Origin: Azospirillaceae bacterium | Lineage (GTDB): Bacteria > Pseudomonadota > Alphaproteobacteria > Azospirillales > Azospirillaceae | Direction: 5' to 3' | NCBI GenBank assembly: GCA_028283825.1 | Contig: JAPWJW010000003.1 | Span: 992,001-1,056,000 of the forward strand | Length of the DNA: 64,000 nucleotides | In this document: one piece after another, positions 10,326-14,708 of the stretch | How positions within the stretch are numbered: position 1 is the first letter of the stretch | Layout of the letters: each line of letters begins with the position of its first letter | Notes under the pieces: generated by a model | What the model was told of the DNA's origin: nothing | Databases searched by the model: none | The model's input: only the letters and a program-made list of their open reading frames with translations | Made by a program: the position numbers and the translations under genes

Positions 10326-12461
10326 ATGAAGAAGAGCGCCGTATCGGCCATCGCCCTGCTGACCGCGCTTTACGCGCAAGCGGGTCGCGCCCACGCCGAA
10401 CCCGCCCCGGCCCCCGCCGACGCCACCGCCGTGGCGACCGAGGTGGACCAGCAGGAAAAATCCCTGGATGAGGTACTGGTGACCGGCAGCCGCGCGCCCT
10501 CCTTCAAGGCGGAGGTGGTGCAAGTCGGCGCCTTCCGGAACCAGTCGCTGCTGGACACGCCGCTGACGGTGGAGATCGTGCCGCGCGCCGTGCTGGACGC
10601 GCAGGGCGCCCAGGGGCTGGACGACGCGCTGCGCAACACGCCGGGCATCACCCAGCAGGCCACCAGCCCGCTGACCAGCAACAACTTCGTCTCGCGCGGC
10701 GTGCTGATGCAGGCCCGCACCAACTATCGCCTCAACGGCTCGCTGCCCATCATCAACCTGGGGCCCATCCCCATCGAGAACAAGCAGCGCGTGGAACTGC
10801 TGAAGGGCGTGTCGGCCCTGTACTACGGCCTCAGCACGCCGTCCGGCATCGTCAACGTGGTGACCAAGCGCGCCGGGCCGGACCCGGTGAATTCCTACTA
10901 CGTCAACGGCGACGCCAACGGCAGTTTCGGCGGCGGTTTCGACGTGGGGCGGGAGTTCGGCGACAAGGACCAGTTCGGTGCCCGCCTGAACGGCTACGCC
11001 TCACGCGTCGGCACGCCGGTGGACGATGTCGACGGCCGCCGCTGGGTGATGGGCGGCGCCTTCGACTGGCGCGCGACCGAACGCCTGACCTTCAAGCTGG
11101 ACACCGAATACTACCGGCGTGAGATGGATGAGCCGGGCGGCATCACCCTGCCCACCGCGGTCGCCGGCAAGATCACCCTGCCCGGCATCCCCGATCCGAC
11201 GCAGCGCCTGGCGCCGCTGAATTCGCCCTACAACACCTGGGCCACCAACGTGGTGGGCCGCGCCGACTACGCCATCACCGACGACTGGTCGGCCCGCGCG
11301 GAATTCGGCGTCGCCTCCACCCGCCGCCAGCGCACCATTTCCAACCTGGGTTCGCTGAACCTGACGACGGGTGCCGGCACCCTGTCCGGCACCTACACGC
11401 CCGACCAGGAATACCGCAACCAGAACGTCCGCACGGAACTGGCCGGCAAGCTGGACACCGGCCCCATCACCCATGAACTGCTGTTCGGATTCAGCCGCAA
11501 CCGGCAGACGCAGGAGGACCAGCACCAGCAGTCCTACACCGCCGTCAAACAGAACCTGTACGACCCCGTCGAGATCACCTACGACAGCCTGCACTTCACC
11601 ACCACCCGCCTGCTGGCCGGCAGTGTCAACATCGACACCGGCGGCTATGTCATGGACATGATGCATCTGGGCGAGAAGTGGCTGCTGATCGCCGGCGGGC
11701 GGTACGTCGACTACGACACCAGTTCATCCACCAGCAACTACACCATCACCACCTTCACCCCCACCGCCGGCCTGGTCTACAAGCTGACGCCCACCGCCAG
11801 CCTGTACACCACCTACATCGAGGGACTGGAGAGTGCGGGCACCGCCCCCGACGGCACCACCAACGCCGGCAGCATCCTGGACCCTGTCGTCAGCAAGCAG
11901 GTGGAGGTGGGCGGCCGCATGGAGGTGGCGGGCGCCATGGTGTCGCTGGCCTGGTTCCACATCGAACGGGGCCTGGCCTACACCGACACCACCAACACCT
12001 ACGTCGTGAATGGCACCGCCGTGCACCAGGGCGTGGAGGCGTCCATCCAGGGCGAGATCCTGCCCCAGGTGTCCTTGATGGTCAGCGGCCAGTACCTGGA
12101 CGCCATCCAGCAGAACACCGGCACCGCCGCTCAGGACGGCAAGCGGGTGGAGAACACGCCGCGCTGGTCCGGTTCCGTCTTCGCGGAATACCGGCCGGAC
12201 TTCCTGCCCGGCGTGGGCCTGAACGCCGGCGTCTATTACACCGGCGACCGCGAGGCCAACGCCCTGAACCAGGCCCTGCTGCCGGGCTATACCACCCTCA
12301 GCCTGGGCGCCAGCTACAAGACGGAGGTGGGCGGCAACGGCCTGACCCTGCGGGTCAACAGCGACAACGTCACCAACACCCGCTACTGGGCGACCGGCGG
12401 CCCCACCCTGTACGCCGGCATGCCGGCCACCGTGCGCTTCTCCGCCACGTTGGATTTGTAA
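10326..12461 (+). CDS. TonB-dependent siderophore receptor
   Basis: A 711-residue outer-membrane receptor that imports ferric siderophores using TonB energy. A signal peptide (MKKSAVSAIALLTALYAQAGRAHA) is followed by a TonB-box-like SLDEVLVTGSR, the plug domain (about 55-200, with LLDTPLTVEIVPR, LDDALRNTPGI and VELLKGVSALYYGLSTPSGIVNVVTKR), and a 22-strand barrel ending in the short C-terminal PATVRFSATLDL, whose terminal residues fit an outer-membrane insertion signal. Motifs and size match the siderophore subfamily. No iron-utilisation partner is adjacent; ars genes lie upstream and leuA downstream. The Fur-like box supports iron repression. The ligand cannot be told from sequence. Confidence 0.93.
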   Translation: MKKSAVSAIALLTALYAQAGRAHAEPAPAPADATAVATEVDQQEKSLDEVLVTGSRAPSFKAEVVQVGAFRNQSLLDTPLTVEIVPRAVLDAQGAQGLDDALRNTPGITQQATSPLTSNNFVSRGVLMQARTNYRLNGSLPIINLGPIPIENKQRVELLKGVSALYYGLSTPSGIVNVVTKRAGPDPVNSYYVNGDANGSFGGGFDVGREFGDKDQFGARLNGYASRVGTPVDDVDGRRWVMGGAFDWRATERLTFKLDTEYYRREMDEPGGITLPTAVAGKITLPGIPDPTQRLAPLNSPYNTWATNVVGRADYAITDDWSARAEFGVASTRRQRTISNLGSLNLTTGAGTLSGTYTPDQEYRNQNVRTELAGKLDTGPITHELLFGFSRNRQTQEDQHQQSYTAVKQNLYDPVEITYDSLHFTTTRLLAGSVNIDTGGYVMDMMHLGEKWLLIAGGRYVDYDTSSSTSNYTITTFTPTAGLVYKLTPTASLYTTYIEGLESAGTAPDGTTNAGSILDPVVSKQVEVGGRMEVAGAMVSLAWFHIERGLAYTDTTNTYVVNGTAVHQGVEASIQGEILPQVSLMVSGQYLDAIQQNTGTAAQDGKRVENTPRWSGSVFAEYRPDFLPGVGLNAGVYYTGDREANALNQALLPGYTTLSLGASYKTEVGGNGLTLRVNSDNVTNTRYWATGGPTLYAGMPATVRFSATLDL

Positions 12462-12466
12462 ACGCC

Positions 12467-12590
12467 CTCAAACGCCGGGCGCGGCCATCCGGCCGCTGGG
12501 CTTGTCCTCAGTTTCCAGTCCACTACGTTCCCCGGAAACTTCCGGCGGCCCCGTCGGGGCCTAAACGGCACGAGGTTCCATCTCGTGCCG
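12467..12590 (+). repeat. dispersed structured repeat, copy 2
   Basis: This begins five bases after the TonB receptor stop. Its middle (about 12506-12574) is nearly identical to the reverse complement of 14718-14886, including CCTCAGTTTCCAGTCCACT and CCCGGAAACTTCCGGCGG. It ends in the hairpin CGGCACGAG / CTCGTGCCG (12566-12574 and 12582-12590). The TTGATC inverted repeat found at one end of copies 1 and 3 is missing. Confidence 0.8.
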
Positions 12591-12699
12591 TTGGATCGGA
12601 GCGCAACGGAAACGTCATTTGAGGTGGGCGCCGCGCATGAAACGACATGCCGCGCCGGGCAGACCCGCAATAAGCGGATGGCGATGGCGCGGCCGGCGC

Positions 12700-12728
12700 T
12701 TGACAGTCCCGGCCGCAGCCGCTCTTAT
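12700..12728 (+). promoter_or_regulatory. promoter of the leuA leader
   Basis: A perfect -35 TTGACA at 12700-12705 is separated by 17 bases from TCTTAT at 12723-12728. Transcription would start near 12735, only a few bases before the leader-peptide ATG at 12739, so the leader message is almost or fully leaderless. Confidence 0.65.
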
Positions 12729-12738
12729 CCCCCGCATC

Positions 12739-12792
12739 ATGTTCGACACCGCGACCGCCACCCTTCTGCGACTTCTTGGCCCGGCCTCCTGA
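12739..12792 (+). CDS. leuL: leucine-rich leader peptide of leuA (attenuator)
   Basis: A 17-codon reading frame, MFDTATATLLRLLGPAS, lies directly downstream of a strong promoter and 242 bases before leuA. Four of five consecutive codons encode leucine (CTT CTG CGA CTT CTT), and three use CTT, which is rare in this CTG/CTC-dominated DNA. This is the expected design of a ribosome-mediated attenuator: stalling on Leu codons when charged Leu-tRNA is scarce changes RNA folding and allows leuA transcription. A hairpin (9 bp with one bulge) overlaps the stop codon. No Shine-Dalgarno sequence is present, as in the leaderless trpL of rhizobia. Confidence 0.7.
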   Translation: MFDTATATLLRLLGPAS

Positions 12793-12970
12793 GAGGACCG
12801 GGACCTTCGTCGTACGCCTGCGCTGTCTGCGGAATTTGCCAAATGTCGTTCATCTGTCCGTCTGCCCACCGTGGCGGGCGCGCCTTTCCTGAAAATCGCC
12901 ACACCCAGCGTCCGGTCGCTTCCCTGCGACTTATCGGCAGTCGTCGGGCCTGACGGCTACCCGGCGGCTG
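12780..12970 (+). promoter_or_regulatory. leuA attenuator RNA region
   Basis: Three foldable segments follow the leader codons. The first is CCCGGCCTC / GAGG-A-CCGGG around 12781-12802. The second is GCCCACC / GGCGGGC near 12868-12883, followed by a pyrimidine-rich CGCGCCTTTCCT. The third is an 11-bp stem with two G-U pairs at 12938-12948 / 12960-12970. I cannot say which act as pause, antiterminator and terminator; no long U-run is visible. Confidence 0.45.
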
Positions 12971-13034
12971 CACCCCTGGCCGTATTCACCATCCCAAACC
13001 TGATGAATACCTTTCCAGCGGAGACGCTTTGATC

Positions 13035-14708
13035 ATGACCATGCTGCGCGATCCCTCCACCAAGTACCGCCCCTTCGCCCACGCCGACCTGCCCGACCGC
13101 ACCTGGCCGTCGCGCGCCATCACCAAGGCGCCGCGCTGGCTGTCCACCGACTTGCGCGACGGCAACCAGGCGCTGATCGACCCGATGGACGCGGAGAAGA
13201 AGCAGCGCTTCTTCGACATGCTGGTGAAGATCGGCCTGAAGGAGATCGAGGTCGGTTTCCCCTCCGCCTCGCAGACCGAATTCGACTTCGTGCGCCAGTT
13301 GCTGGACGGCGGCCGCGTGCCCGACGACGTCACCATCCAGGTGCTGACCCAGGCCCGGCGCGACCTGATCGAACGCACGTTCGAGAGCCTGCGCGGCGCA
13401 CCCCGCGCCATCGTGCACATGTACAACGCCATCTCCCCCGCCTGGCGCCGCATCGTGTTCGGCATGGACCGGGCCGGCATCAAGGACATCGCCGTCAAGG
13501 GCGTCACCATCCTGCGCGAACAGGCGGAGAAGTATCCCGAGACCGATTGGGTCTTTGAATACTCGCCCGAAACTTTCAGCACCGCCGAACCCGACTTCGC
13601 GGTGGAGGTGTGCGAGGCGGTGCTGGACGTGCTGCGGCCCACGCCCGACAAGCCCGTCATCCTGAACCTGCCCGCCACGGTGGAGGCCGCCGGCCCCCAC
13701 ATCTACGCCGACCAGATCGAACACTTCTGCCGCCAGATCAGCCGCCGCGACAGCGTCATCGTCAGCGTCCATCCCCATAACGACCGCGGCACCGGTGTCG
13801 CCGCCGCCGAACTGGCGGTGCAGGCGGGTGCGGACCGGGTGGAAGGCTGCCTGTTCGGCAATGGCGAGCGCACGGGCAACGTCGACCTGGTGACCCTGGC
13901 GCTGAACCTGTACACCCAGGGCGTCAACCCGGAACTGGACTTCTCCGACATCCAGTCCGTGGTCCAGACCGTCCAGTACTGCAACCAGATCCCGGTGCAC
14001 CCCCGCCACCCTTATGCCGGTGAGCTGGTGTTCACCGCCTTCTCCGGTTCCCACCAGGACGCCATCAAGAAGGGCTTCGCCGCCCAGGCCGGGCGCAACG
14101 AGGAGATCTGGGACGTTCCCTATCTGCCCATCGACCCAAGCGACCTGGGCTGCGGTTATGAGGCGGTGATTCGCGTCAACAGCCAGTCGGGCAAGGGCGG
14201 CATCGCCTGGGTCATGGAACAGGACAAGGGCCTGAAGCTGCCCCGTGCCATGCAGATCGACTTCAGCCGCGTGGTCCAGGGCTACGCCGACGAATCCAGC
14301 CGCGAGATGACGGCGGCCGACATCTGGACCATCTTCCAGGACACCTACTGCCTGTCCGGCCTGCAACGGTTCGAGCTGATTGACTATCAGGAAACCGGTG
14401 CCGCCGGCAGCCGCGACCGCGTGTTCGTGGGCCGCATGAGCGTGGGGCGTGAGGAACGCAGCATCAGCGGCCGGGGCAACGGCCTGCTGTCCAGCGTGCT
14501 GGCCGCCCTGAAGGCCGACTGCGGCGTGGAACTGGACATCGTCGATTACCAGGAACACGCCATCGGCCACGGCGGCGACGCCCGCGCCGCGGCTTACGTC
14601 GAATGCCGCACCACCGACGGCCGCAAGGTCTTCGGCGTGGGCATCGACACCGACGTGGCCACCGCCTCGGTCCGCGCGGTGCTGAGTGCGGCCAACGGCG
14701 CCGGCTGA
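13035..14708 (+). CDS. leuA: 2-isopropylmalate synthase
   Basis: A 557-residue cytosolic enzyme that condenses acetyl-CoA with 2-ketoisovalerate, the committed step of leucine synthesis. It is the long form ([12 protein letters not shown], then [24 protein letters not shown]). The TIM-barrel metal site is seen in DLRDGNQAL and HPHNDRGTG, with [11 protein letters not shown] after it. The C-terminal part (from about residue 430) is the LeuA regulatory domain that gives leucine feedback inhibition; it ends with [23 protein letters not shown] 13035 has GGAG 11 bases upstream; TTG 13029 and ATG 13041 are alternatives. The leader peptide and hairpins upstream indicate transcription attenuation by leucine. 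It is alone, with no other leu genes nearby. Confidence 0.96.

Follow-up and report, generated by a model that had tools for sequence, protein, structure and literature searches.

The leader of leuA in an Azospirillaceae bacterium is, on balance, probably a two-step ribosome-driven leucine relay that acts mainly at translation initiation. The window, the whole stretch of 64,000 nucleotides that was analysed, belongs to a 7.16 Mb genome; among named organisms, Nitrospirillum species and Azospirillum sp. B4 are its closest relatives. All leader features described for the window are located on its forward strand. A near-leaderless leucine leader ORF, uORF1, is followed by a second leader ORF, uORF2, and then by leuA. 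The coding stretch of each leader ORF is predicted to pair with the next start, and thus ribosome occupancy of one should open the next, in the order uORF1, uORF2, leuA. The ORFs, the promoter spacing, hairpin A, the pseudoknot, the putative closing helices, and the linkage to leuA are supported by comparison between loci; coevolution and folding support the proposed masking of each start by the preceding ORF. The first-pass annotation of this DNA covered uORF1 and its surroundings; uORF2, the pseudoknot encoded by its end, and the two apparently coevolving helices go beyond it.

The leader precedes the gene for a long-form 2-isopropylmalate synthase (positions 13035–14708, starting with ATG 13035 or 13041), named leuA after the annotated relative at locus L031. 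Upstream of the leader, a 711-residue ORF (10326–12461) resembles a TonB-dependent receptor by eye. Two congeners contain partial second LeuA-like matches with 63–65% identity to C-terminal parts of LeuA (L008 in G003:C52 and L016 in G005:C360).

uORF1 (MFDTATATLLRLLGPAS) occupies positions 12739–12792, starts with ATG 12739, has 17 codons, and ends with TGA 12790–12792. It is preceded by the −35 element TTGACA (12700–12705) and, after a spacer of 17 nucleotides, the −10 element TCTTAT (12723–12728). The −35 element is kept in all seven genomes of the genus, that of the window included, and the −10 element is TTTTAT in the six congeners. The consensus promoter scan of the window reported none at threshold, because TCTTAT lacks an A at its second position. 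The coordinates of the promoter, the start codon, the 17-codon frame, and the stop-codon hairpin in the first-pass annotation are correct, as is the leucine run CTT CTG CGA CTT CTT. CTT is rare as claimed, accounting for 22 of the 1353 leucine codons in 26 long window ORFs with high GC3, and CGA makes up 1.3% of the arginine codons in the same count. In uORF1 of 39 loci, CTT accounts for 79 of 169 leucine codons, versus 151 of 2045 in the parts of leuA fetched from the same loci.

The conservation of leucine codons and stems in relatives, which the first-pass annotation named as a check, was found within the genus: uORF1, its leucine run, an identical stop-codon hairpin, and the promoter spacing are present in 7/7 genomes, the run reading LLRLL in the window and LLLL in the other six. 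uORF1 is confirmed as a genuine leader ORF. Across the family and the class its sequence varies and its shape is constant, with, for example, MNTIDRKNALLRLLGPAL in Azospirillum-type loci and MIIHAAALLRLLGPTS or MKRDRRLTQLLLINPIL elsewhere. Within the genus, neither uORF1 nor uORF2 has an excess of changes at third codon positions, which counts against the relay; selection is visible on the frame, the codons, and the RNA, and not on most of the peptide.

The almost missing 5′ leader claimed by the first-pass annotation recurs in other loci. TTGA[CT] is positioned 35–39 nucleotides 5′ of the uORF1 ATG in 38 of 39 loci, in a search range of 33–41 nucleotides with TTGAT permitted, a count that is not independent since the uORF1 starts were selected visually from the in-frame ATGs when this spacing was already suspected. 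The chance expectation for TTGAC within a range of five nucleotides is approximately 0.1 for the composition of the window. In 95% of the 38 promoters, a T is found 28 nucleotides downstream of the first base of the −35 element. An objective search detected a near-leaderless leucine ORF in 24 of 40 leuA upstream regions, compared with 2/40 in the reverse complements and a mean of 0.12 in shuffled sequences; the 40 were hand-chosen from 80 genomes that were positive for LeuA and negative for model R1 (described below), and two of the stretches were shortened by contig ends. Near-leaderless leucine ORFs are widespread 5′ of leuA in Alphaproteobacteria. The promoter spacing together with the objective search indicates that transcription probably begins at the uORF1 AUG or within a few bases of it, and the 39-nucleotide spacing in the genus suggests a leader of about three nucleotides.

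Besides the 39 loci in which uORF1 was located initially, L102 and L124 were recognised later. Of the 52 proteobacterial R1-positive loci, 11 yielded no uORF1. In L108, L109, L114, and L115, which are among these 11, the leucine run sits in the pseudoknot ORF and the promoter is placed 37–39 nucleotides before its ATG, as if the two stages had merged. In L169 and L172–L175, from one genus of the same class, a single merged ORF with a leucine run (ending in CTGCTTCTTCTCGGCCTTATCGGCGATCGCCGGGTTCGCTGA) continues into the pseudoknot before leuA.

Hairpin A (CCCGGCCTCCTGAGAGGACCGGG, 12780–12802) spans the uORF1 stop codon and has a folding energy of −15.1 kcal/mol (z −3.3), and two of its eight pairs covary. 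Its pairing and that of the other helices were assessed by swap tests, in which the duplex energies of cognate segment pairs are compared with those of pairs exchanged between species; the tests ignore the tree, close relatives having been thinned by hand, and the 28 loci used are a hand-picked non-redundant subset of the 39 with uORF1. In the scan of segment pairs and in the five-window assessment of the second closing helix, a simple Shine-Dalgarno score decided the leuA start, and the uORF2 start was set at the first in-frame ATG from the 5′ side, or at a GTG if no ATG was present. Hairpin A reaches z −6.9. Among the 136 pairs of 17 segments scanned, the three highest ranks are taken by hairpin A, by the pairing of the uORF1 5′ end to the uORF2 start, and by the pseudoknot stem S1.

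The second of these pairs corresponds to the putative closing helix P1. Its 5′ side is formed by early uORF1 codons (12743–12764 in the duplex calculated for the window, locus L001), and its 3′ side, identified from the duplex and the fold, reaches and covers the uORF2 start codon (12799–12849). Cognate segments have a duplex energy of −20.07 kcal/mol, versus −14.54 (sd 0.62) kcal/mol for permuted ones, and none of 5000 permutations was equally good (28 loci). P1 is present in both the minimum free energy and the centroid fold of 12739–12853, which has an energy of −44.5 kcal/mol (z −3.45; 1/200 shuffles equally good) and pairs the uORF1 AUG with CAU 12851–12853, and CGACA with UGUCG across the uORF2 start codon. 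These data indicate that the uORF1 5′ end and the uORF2 start coevolve as a closing helix. The uORF1 leucine codons pair weakly with their own 3′ flank (101/5000, 28 loci), which counts against the relay. Two other pairings found no support in the swap tests: uORF1 5′ end to leuA start (2126/5000), and element B leucine region to uORF2 start (1620/5000).

uORF2 (MSFICPSAHRGGRAFPENRHTQRPVASLRLIGSRRA, 12843–12953) starts with an in-frame ATG and has a conserved open frame. The frame contains an ATG 30–85 nucleotides past the uORF1 stop and is open to the leucine codon in 27 of 28 non-redundant loci, a rule that the other two frames follow in 1 and 4 of the 28; with GTG permitted, the counts are 28 for the uORF2 frame and 4 and 7 for the others. 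The gap between the uORF1 stop and the uORF2 start measures 34–80 nucleotides in 39 loci. Among the 54 loci analysed, the end of uORF2, LRLxGGRRA, is found repeatedly, with some variation. Three observations count against the relay: 38 of 39 uORF2s have no four-base Shine-Dalgarno core, L100, L103, and L105 have a single leucine codon at the element (ERLRGGRRA), and the uORF2 stop is located 20–34 nucleotides into the element in 22/28 loci. In L037 and L042, which are of the Azospirillum type, the stop codon within the pseudoknot loop has disappeared and uORF2 continues past it, with the RNA structure preserved. A search of plasmid DNA matched 43–46 nucleotides of the leader, corresponding to the end of uORF2, at 89–91% identity in four records, two from Shinella and two from one Rhizobium strain; the two examined sit in leuA leaders.

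The end of uORF2 forms part of element B (12923–12988), which matches model R1 with 77.1 bits, the window sequence being a member of the R1 training set. The predicted pseudoknot (12937–12983) consists of an 11-bp stem S1, a loop that carries the uORF2 stop codon, and a 5-bp stem S2 formed by the loop with GCCGU downstream. The arms, which show covariation, are 12937–12947 (the end codons of uORF2) and 12961–12971 for S1, and ACGGC 12953–12957, whose first base is the final one of the uORF2 stop, and GCCGT 12979–12983 for S2. In 21 sequences, 94.9% of cells are standard pairs, compared with 22.7–56.8% when the partner is slid, although the structure had been worked out on these 21 sequences, giving it an advantage over the slid versions. 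Two-sided changes are found in 8 of 16 pairs, a number equalled by 0/500 shuffles; the number of further pair types was equalled by 23/500. In 47 sequences, whose alignment was fitted to the model, 95.1% of the S1 cells are paired versus 23.3–62.5% when slid; S2 was counted on the 21 sequences only. The results for S2 alone (35/3000 in the swap scan) and for the 66-nucleotide element of the window folded without pseudoknot energy (z −1.5, 14/200 shuffles equally good) count against the relay. The segment CGACUUA of element B (columns 5–11 of alignment A3) is strongly conserved though unpaired, and adjoins the pseudoknot; its conservation could reflect the choice of codons, CGA and CTT both being rare, or else a tertiary contact.

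The first-pass annotation placed two further stems before leuA. Both are present: one is half of the pseudoknot, and the other is hairpin C (GTATTCA...TGAATAC, 12982–13010; z −4.4), located directly 5′ of the leuA ribosome-binding site in this genus.

Element B is linked to leuA. A search with R1 under strict filters matched 30 of 385 alphaproteobacterial genomes, once each, in 17 families, and all 30 matches are directly upstream of leuA on the same strand; two of the genomes (G000 and G016) are in the training set and 28 are outside it. Long-form LeuA was detected at E ≤ 1e-120 in 110 of the 385 genomes. The 67 sense-strand R1 matches were reduced to the 54 analysed by leaving out 13 near-identical Azospirillum-type or duplicate loci (L035, L039, L041, L043, L044, L048–L054, and L099), and eight antisense matches were discarded. 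Model R2 gave 20 matches at E ≤ 0.1 in the 40 R1-negative regions, some of these matches being doubtful. Among 299 genomes of the phylum, R2 matched nine: the window, seven others before leuA, two of which are outside the Alphaproteobacteria, and L171, the locus of which contains no leuA. L168, from outside the class, has the entire tandem layout by eye. In 34 loci (actinobacterial, gammaproteobacterial, sphingomonad, one from Azospirillaceae, and two LeuA paralogues), R2 gave four matches at E ≤ 1, and the sole one in a leuA leader was L093 (E 0.5). The single-ORF sphingomonad leaders L064, L066–L068, L070, L093, and L096 are therefore without element B as modelled. Each of these seven sphingomonad-type leuA leaders has one leucine ORF. 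Six of the ORFs end in RLxRP with the stop inside CCCTTAGGCG, whose inverted repeat sits downstream and is followed directly by six T only in L068; in L066 and L067 the leucine run is able to pair, by eye, with the leuA start region.

The second closing helix would connect the leucine-codon region of uORF2 with the leuA start. In the window, its 5′ side spans 12894–12936 (B −29 to +13 in the L001 duplex), and its 3′ side spans 13001–13053 (leuA −34 to +18 relative to ATG 13035) around GGAG 13020–13023 and the leuA start. It was assessed in 39 loci, the 28 swap-test loci and 11 others, with five choices of segment windows. Two of these, B −35 to +14, and B −12 to +14 with leuA −35 to +5, gave 0/5000 (z −4.7 and −4.9), and the remaining three gave 4, 11, and 45 of 5000. 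One control segment further upstream gave z −0.4 and another, downstream of the pseudoknot, z +1.1; neither was significant. The data indicate that the uORF2 leucine region and the leuA start coevolve as a closing helix. Counted against the relay are the weaker values in other windows (45/5000 with 28 loci, 248/5000 with 39 loci, and 36/3000) and the unplanned pair of the uORF1 leucine codons with the leuA start, which reached 30/5000 (39 loci).

From these structures we infer the following course of events. In the first step, the transcript would start a few bases from the uORF1 AUG and 70S ribosomes would load there. When leucine is ample, the ribosome would pass the CTT/CTG/CGA run and depart at the uORF1 stop, and the RNA would then form one long hairpin with A at its tip and P1 at its base, pairing the uORF1 5′ end to the uORF2 start and closing both. 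When leucine is scarce, a ribosome stalled on the uORF1 leucine codons would mask the 5′ arm of P1, and the uORF2 start would open. In the second step, CTG-CGA-CTT of uORF2 directly precedes the pseudoknot with the uORF2 stop in its loop, and the leucine-codon region would also pair with the ribosome-binding and start region of leuA. A ribosome slowed at these codons would hold the helix open so that leuA is translated, whereas rapid termination of uORF2 would enable the pseudoknot and the helix to close leuA. The rare leucine codons are positioned such that a ribosome stalled on them would lie over, or next to, the 5′ arms of the helices.

The first-pass annotation regarded the leader as a complete design for ribosome-mediated attenuation. 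The leucine leader ORF and its conserved leucine codons bear this out in part; the terminator part of the design is not supported in the window, where no U-run terminator was found and the number of terminator-like sites in 12500–13100 is zero. Translation-initiation control is therefore favoured there. Classical attenuation of the trp/leu type, in which a stall in uORF1 or uORF2 would select between an antiterminator and an intrinsic terminator, draws on the leader ORFs with leucine codons and the stop-codon hairpin, and also on T-rich runs in some relatives. Such runs follow the pseudoknot stem directly in 4 of 54 leaders (L062, L102, L107, and L117) and come soon after the uORF1 stop in two (L062 and L103). 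By the rule of six T in eight, T-rich stretches occur in 16/54 leaders at scattered positions, but 38/54 have none, which together with the absence of terminator-like sites in 12500–13100 makes this explanation quite improbable. Intrinsic termination may serve in some lineages. In L170, from outside the class, a strong hairpin followed by nine T is seen by eye between uORF1 and uORF2 (approximately positions 1250–1572), and AAGGAG precedes the uORF2 ATG; in this lineage, the first stage may be a true transcription attenuator.

The absence of an intrinsic terminator from the window, and from any conserved place, fits Rho-dependent attenuation as well. A closed uORF2 start would leave a C-rich untranslated uORF2 that recruits Rho, and translation of uORF2 would mask it, so that the relay would be unchanged but its output transcriptional. 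The leaders are long and mostly GC-rich, and PMC1262725 suggests Rho for cys leader ORFs of mycobacteria that lack terminators. Nevertheless, the apparently coevolving helix between uORF2 and the leuA start points to control of leuA initiation, and we consider the Rho mechanism unlikely. The RNA could alternatively be a protein-binding site for a regulator with incidental peptides, as proposed for the actinobacterial LEU element, for which PMC1262725 favours a protein ligand, citing Streptomyces codon mutants. The conserved unpaired CGACUUA that adjoins the pseudoknot would suit such a site, whereas the conservation of the uORF2 frame and start (27/28) and the enrichment of rare leucine codons in both ORFs argue against it, and we regard it as very unlikely. 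Short ORFs are common in GC-rich DNA, but an origin of the ORF and hairpins by chance is contradicted by the conservation, the 30/30 linkage to leuA, and the permutation tests, and its probability is negligible.

The relay resembles known systems in its parts. Seliverstov et al. 2005 (PMC1262725) describe the actinobacterial LEU element upstream of leuA: it comprises a leader ORF that contains leucine codons, a pseudoknot, and a base helix in which the leucine run pairs with the leuA ribosome-binding site. A leucine leader ORF, a pseudoknot, and a predicted helix between leucine codons and the leuA start also occur here, matched to that description by topology and not residue by residue. Three actinobacterial leuA leaders have an 11-bp S1, a stop codon in its loop, and an S2 between the loop and downstream sequence. 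R2 had no match in these three leaders and R1 had two marginal ones (E ~0.03); genome-wide, the actinobacterial leuA sites were not among the R1 matches listed, which comprise 150 of more than 10,000 candidates scored per genome. In layout, the pseudoknot module corresponds to the LEU element, and their common descent is unproven. Unlike the LEU element as there described, the leader studied here begins with an extra near-leaderless leucine ORF whose 5′ end would pair with the start of the pseudoknot ORF.

The first-pass annotation drew a parallel to the rhizobial trpL. According to PMC7298713 and PMC10117765, trpL/rnTrpL of Alphaproteobacteria is a leader ORF transcribed from its AUG onwards, and, according to the former, it acts via a terminator and an antiterminator. 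The parallel applies to the near-leaderless uORF1; it does not extend to the mode of action so described, as no terminator was seen in this window. Leaderless poly-cysteine uORFs of mycobacteria are cited as translation attenuation in PMC13236596. They share with uORF1 the form of a leaderless short ORF rich in the amino acid presumed to be sensed. The mycobacterial poly-cysteine uORF of Canestrari et al. 2020 reportedly differs in the amino acid, the bacteria, and in being a single ORF. Among translational attenuators, two leader peptides in series precede the regulated gene in ermA (PMC8615237) and ermB (PMC8274638); in these systems drug-bound ribosomes stall, whereas the presumed signal here is the supply of charged tRNA. 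The enterobacterial Leu_leader (RF00512) is likewise a leucine leader before leu genes; its Rfam model had no match in the window or in its genome of origin, while a control search matched 3 of 14 genomes, and Rfam searches of the window at gathering and relaxed thresholds gave nothing relevant. The literature searched, which mostly excluded subscription journals, contained no account of this leader in Alphaproteobacteria and none of two leucine ORFs arranged as a relay, the first of them leaderless. Attenuator studies by Vitreschak, and by Lyubetsky and colleagues, could mention alphaproteobacterial leuA, and absence from print is not claimed.

A wider proposal, which we put forward tentatively and with some doubt, is that a two-stage translational leucine relay operates in numerous Alphaproteobacteria and in one or more genomes beyond the class, that its leaderless leucine ORF and the next leucine ORF lock each other's starts, and that its second stage, a LEU-type pseudoknot, has moved between Proteobacteria and Actinobacteria together with long-form leuA. 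If true, the unexplained LEU element, for which codon mutants had yielded odd outcomes, would be tied to a testable mechanism, the masking of start sites by leucine codons; two probably translated ORFs would be added upstream of leuA in many genomes, and the leader would provide a leaderless-mRNA system for measuring loading, stalling, and handover of ribosomes. Many Alphaproteobacteria would then control leucine synthesis by a serial two-ribosome sensor, with no repressor.
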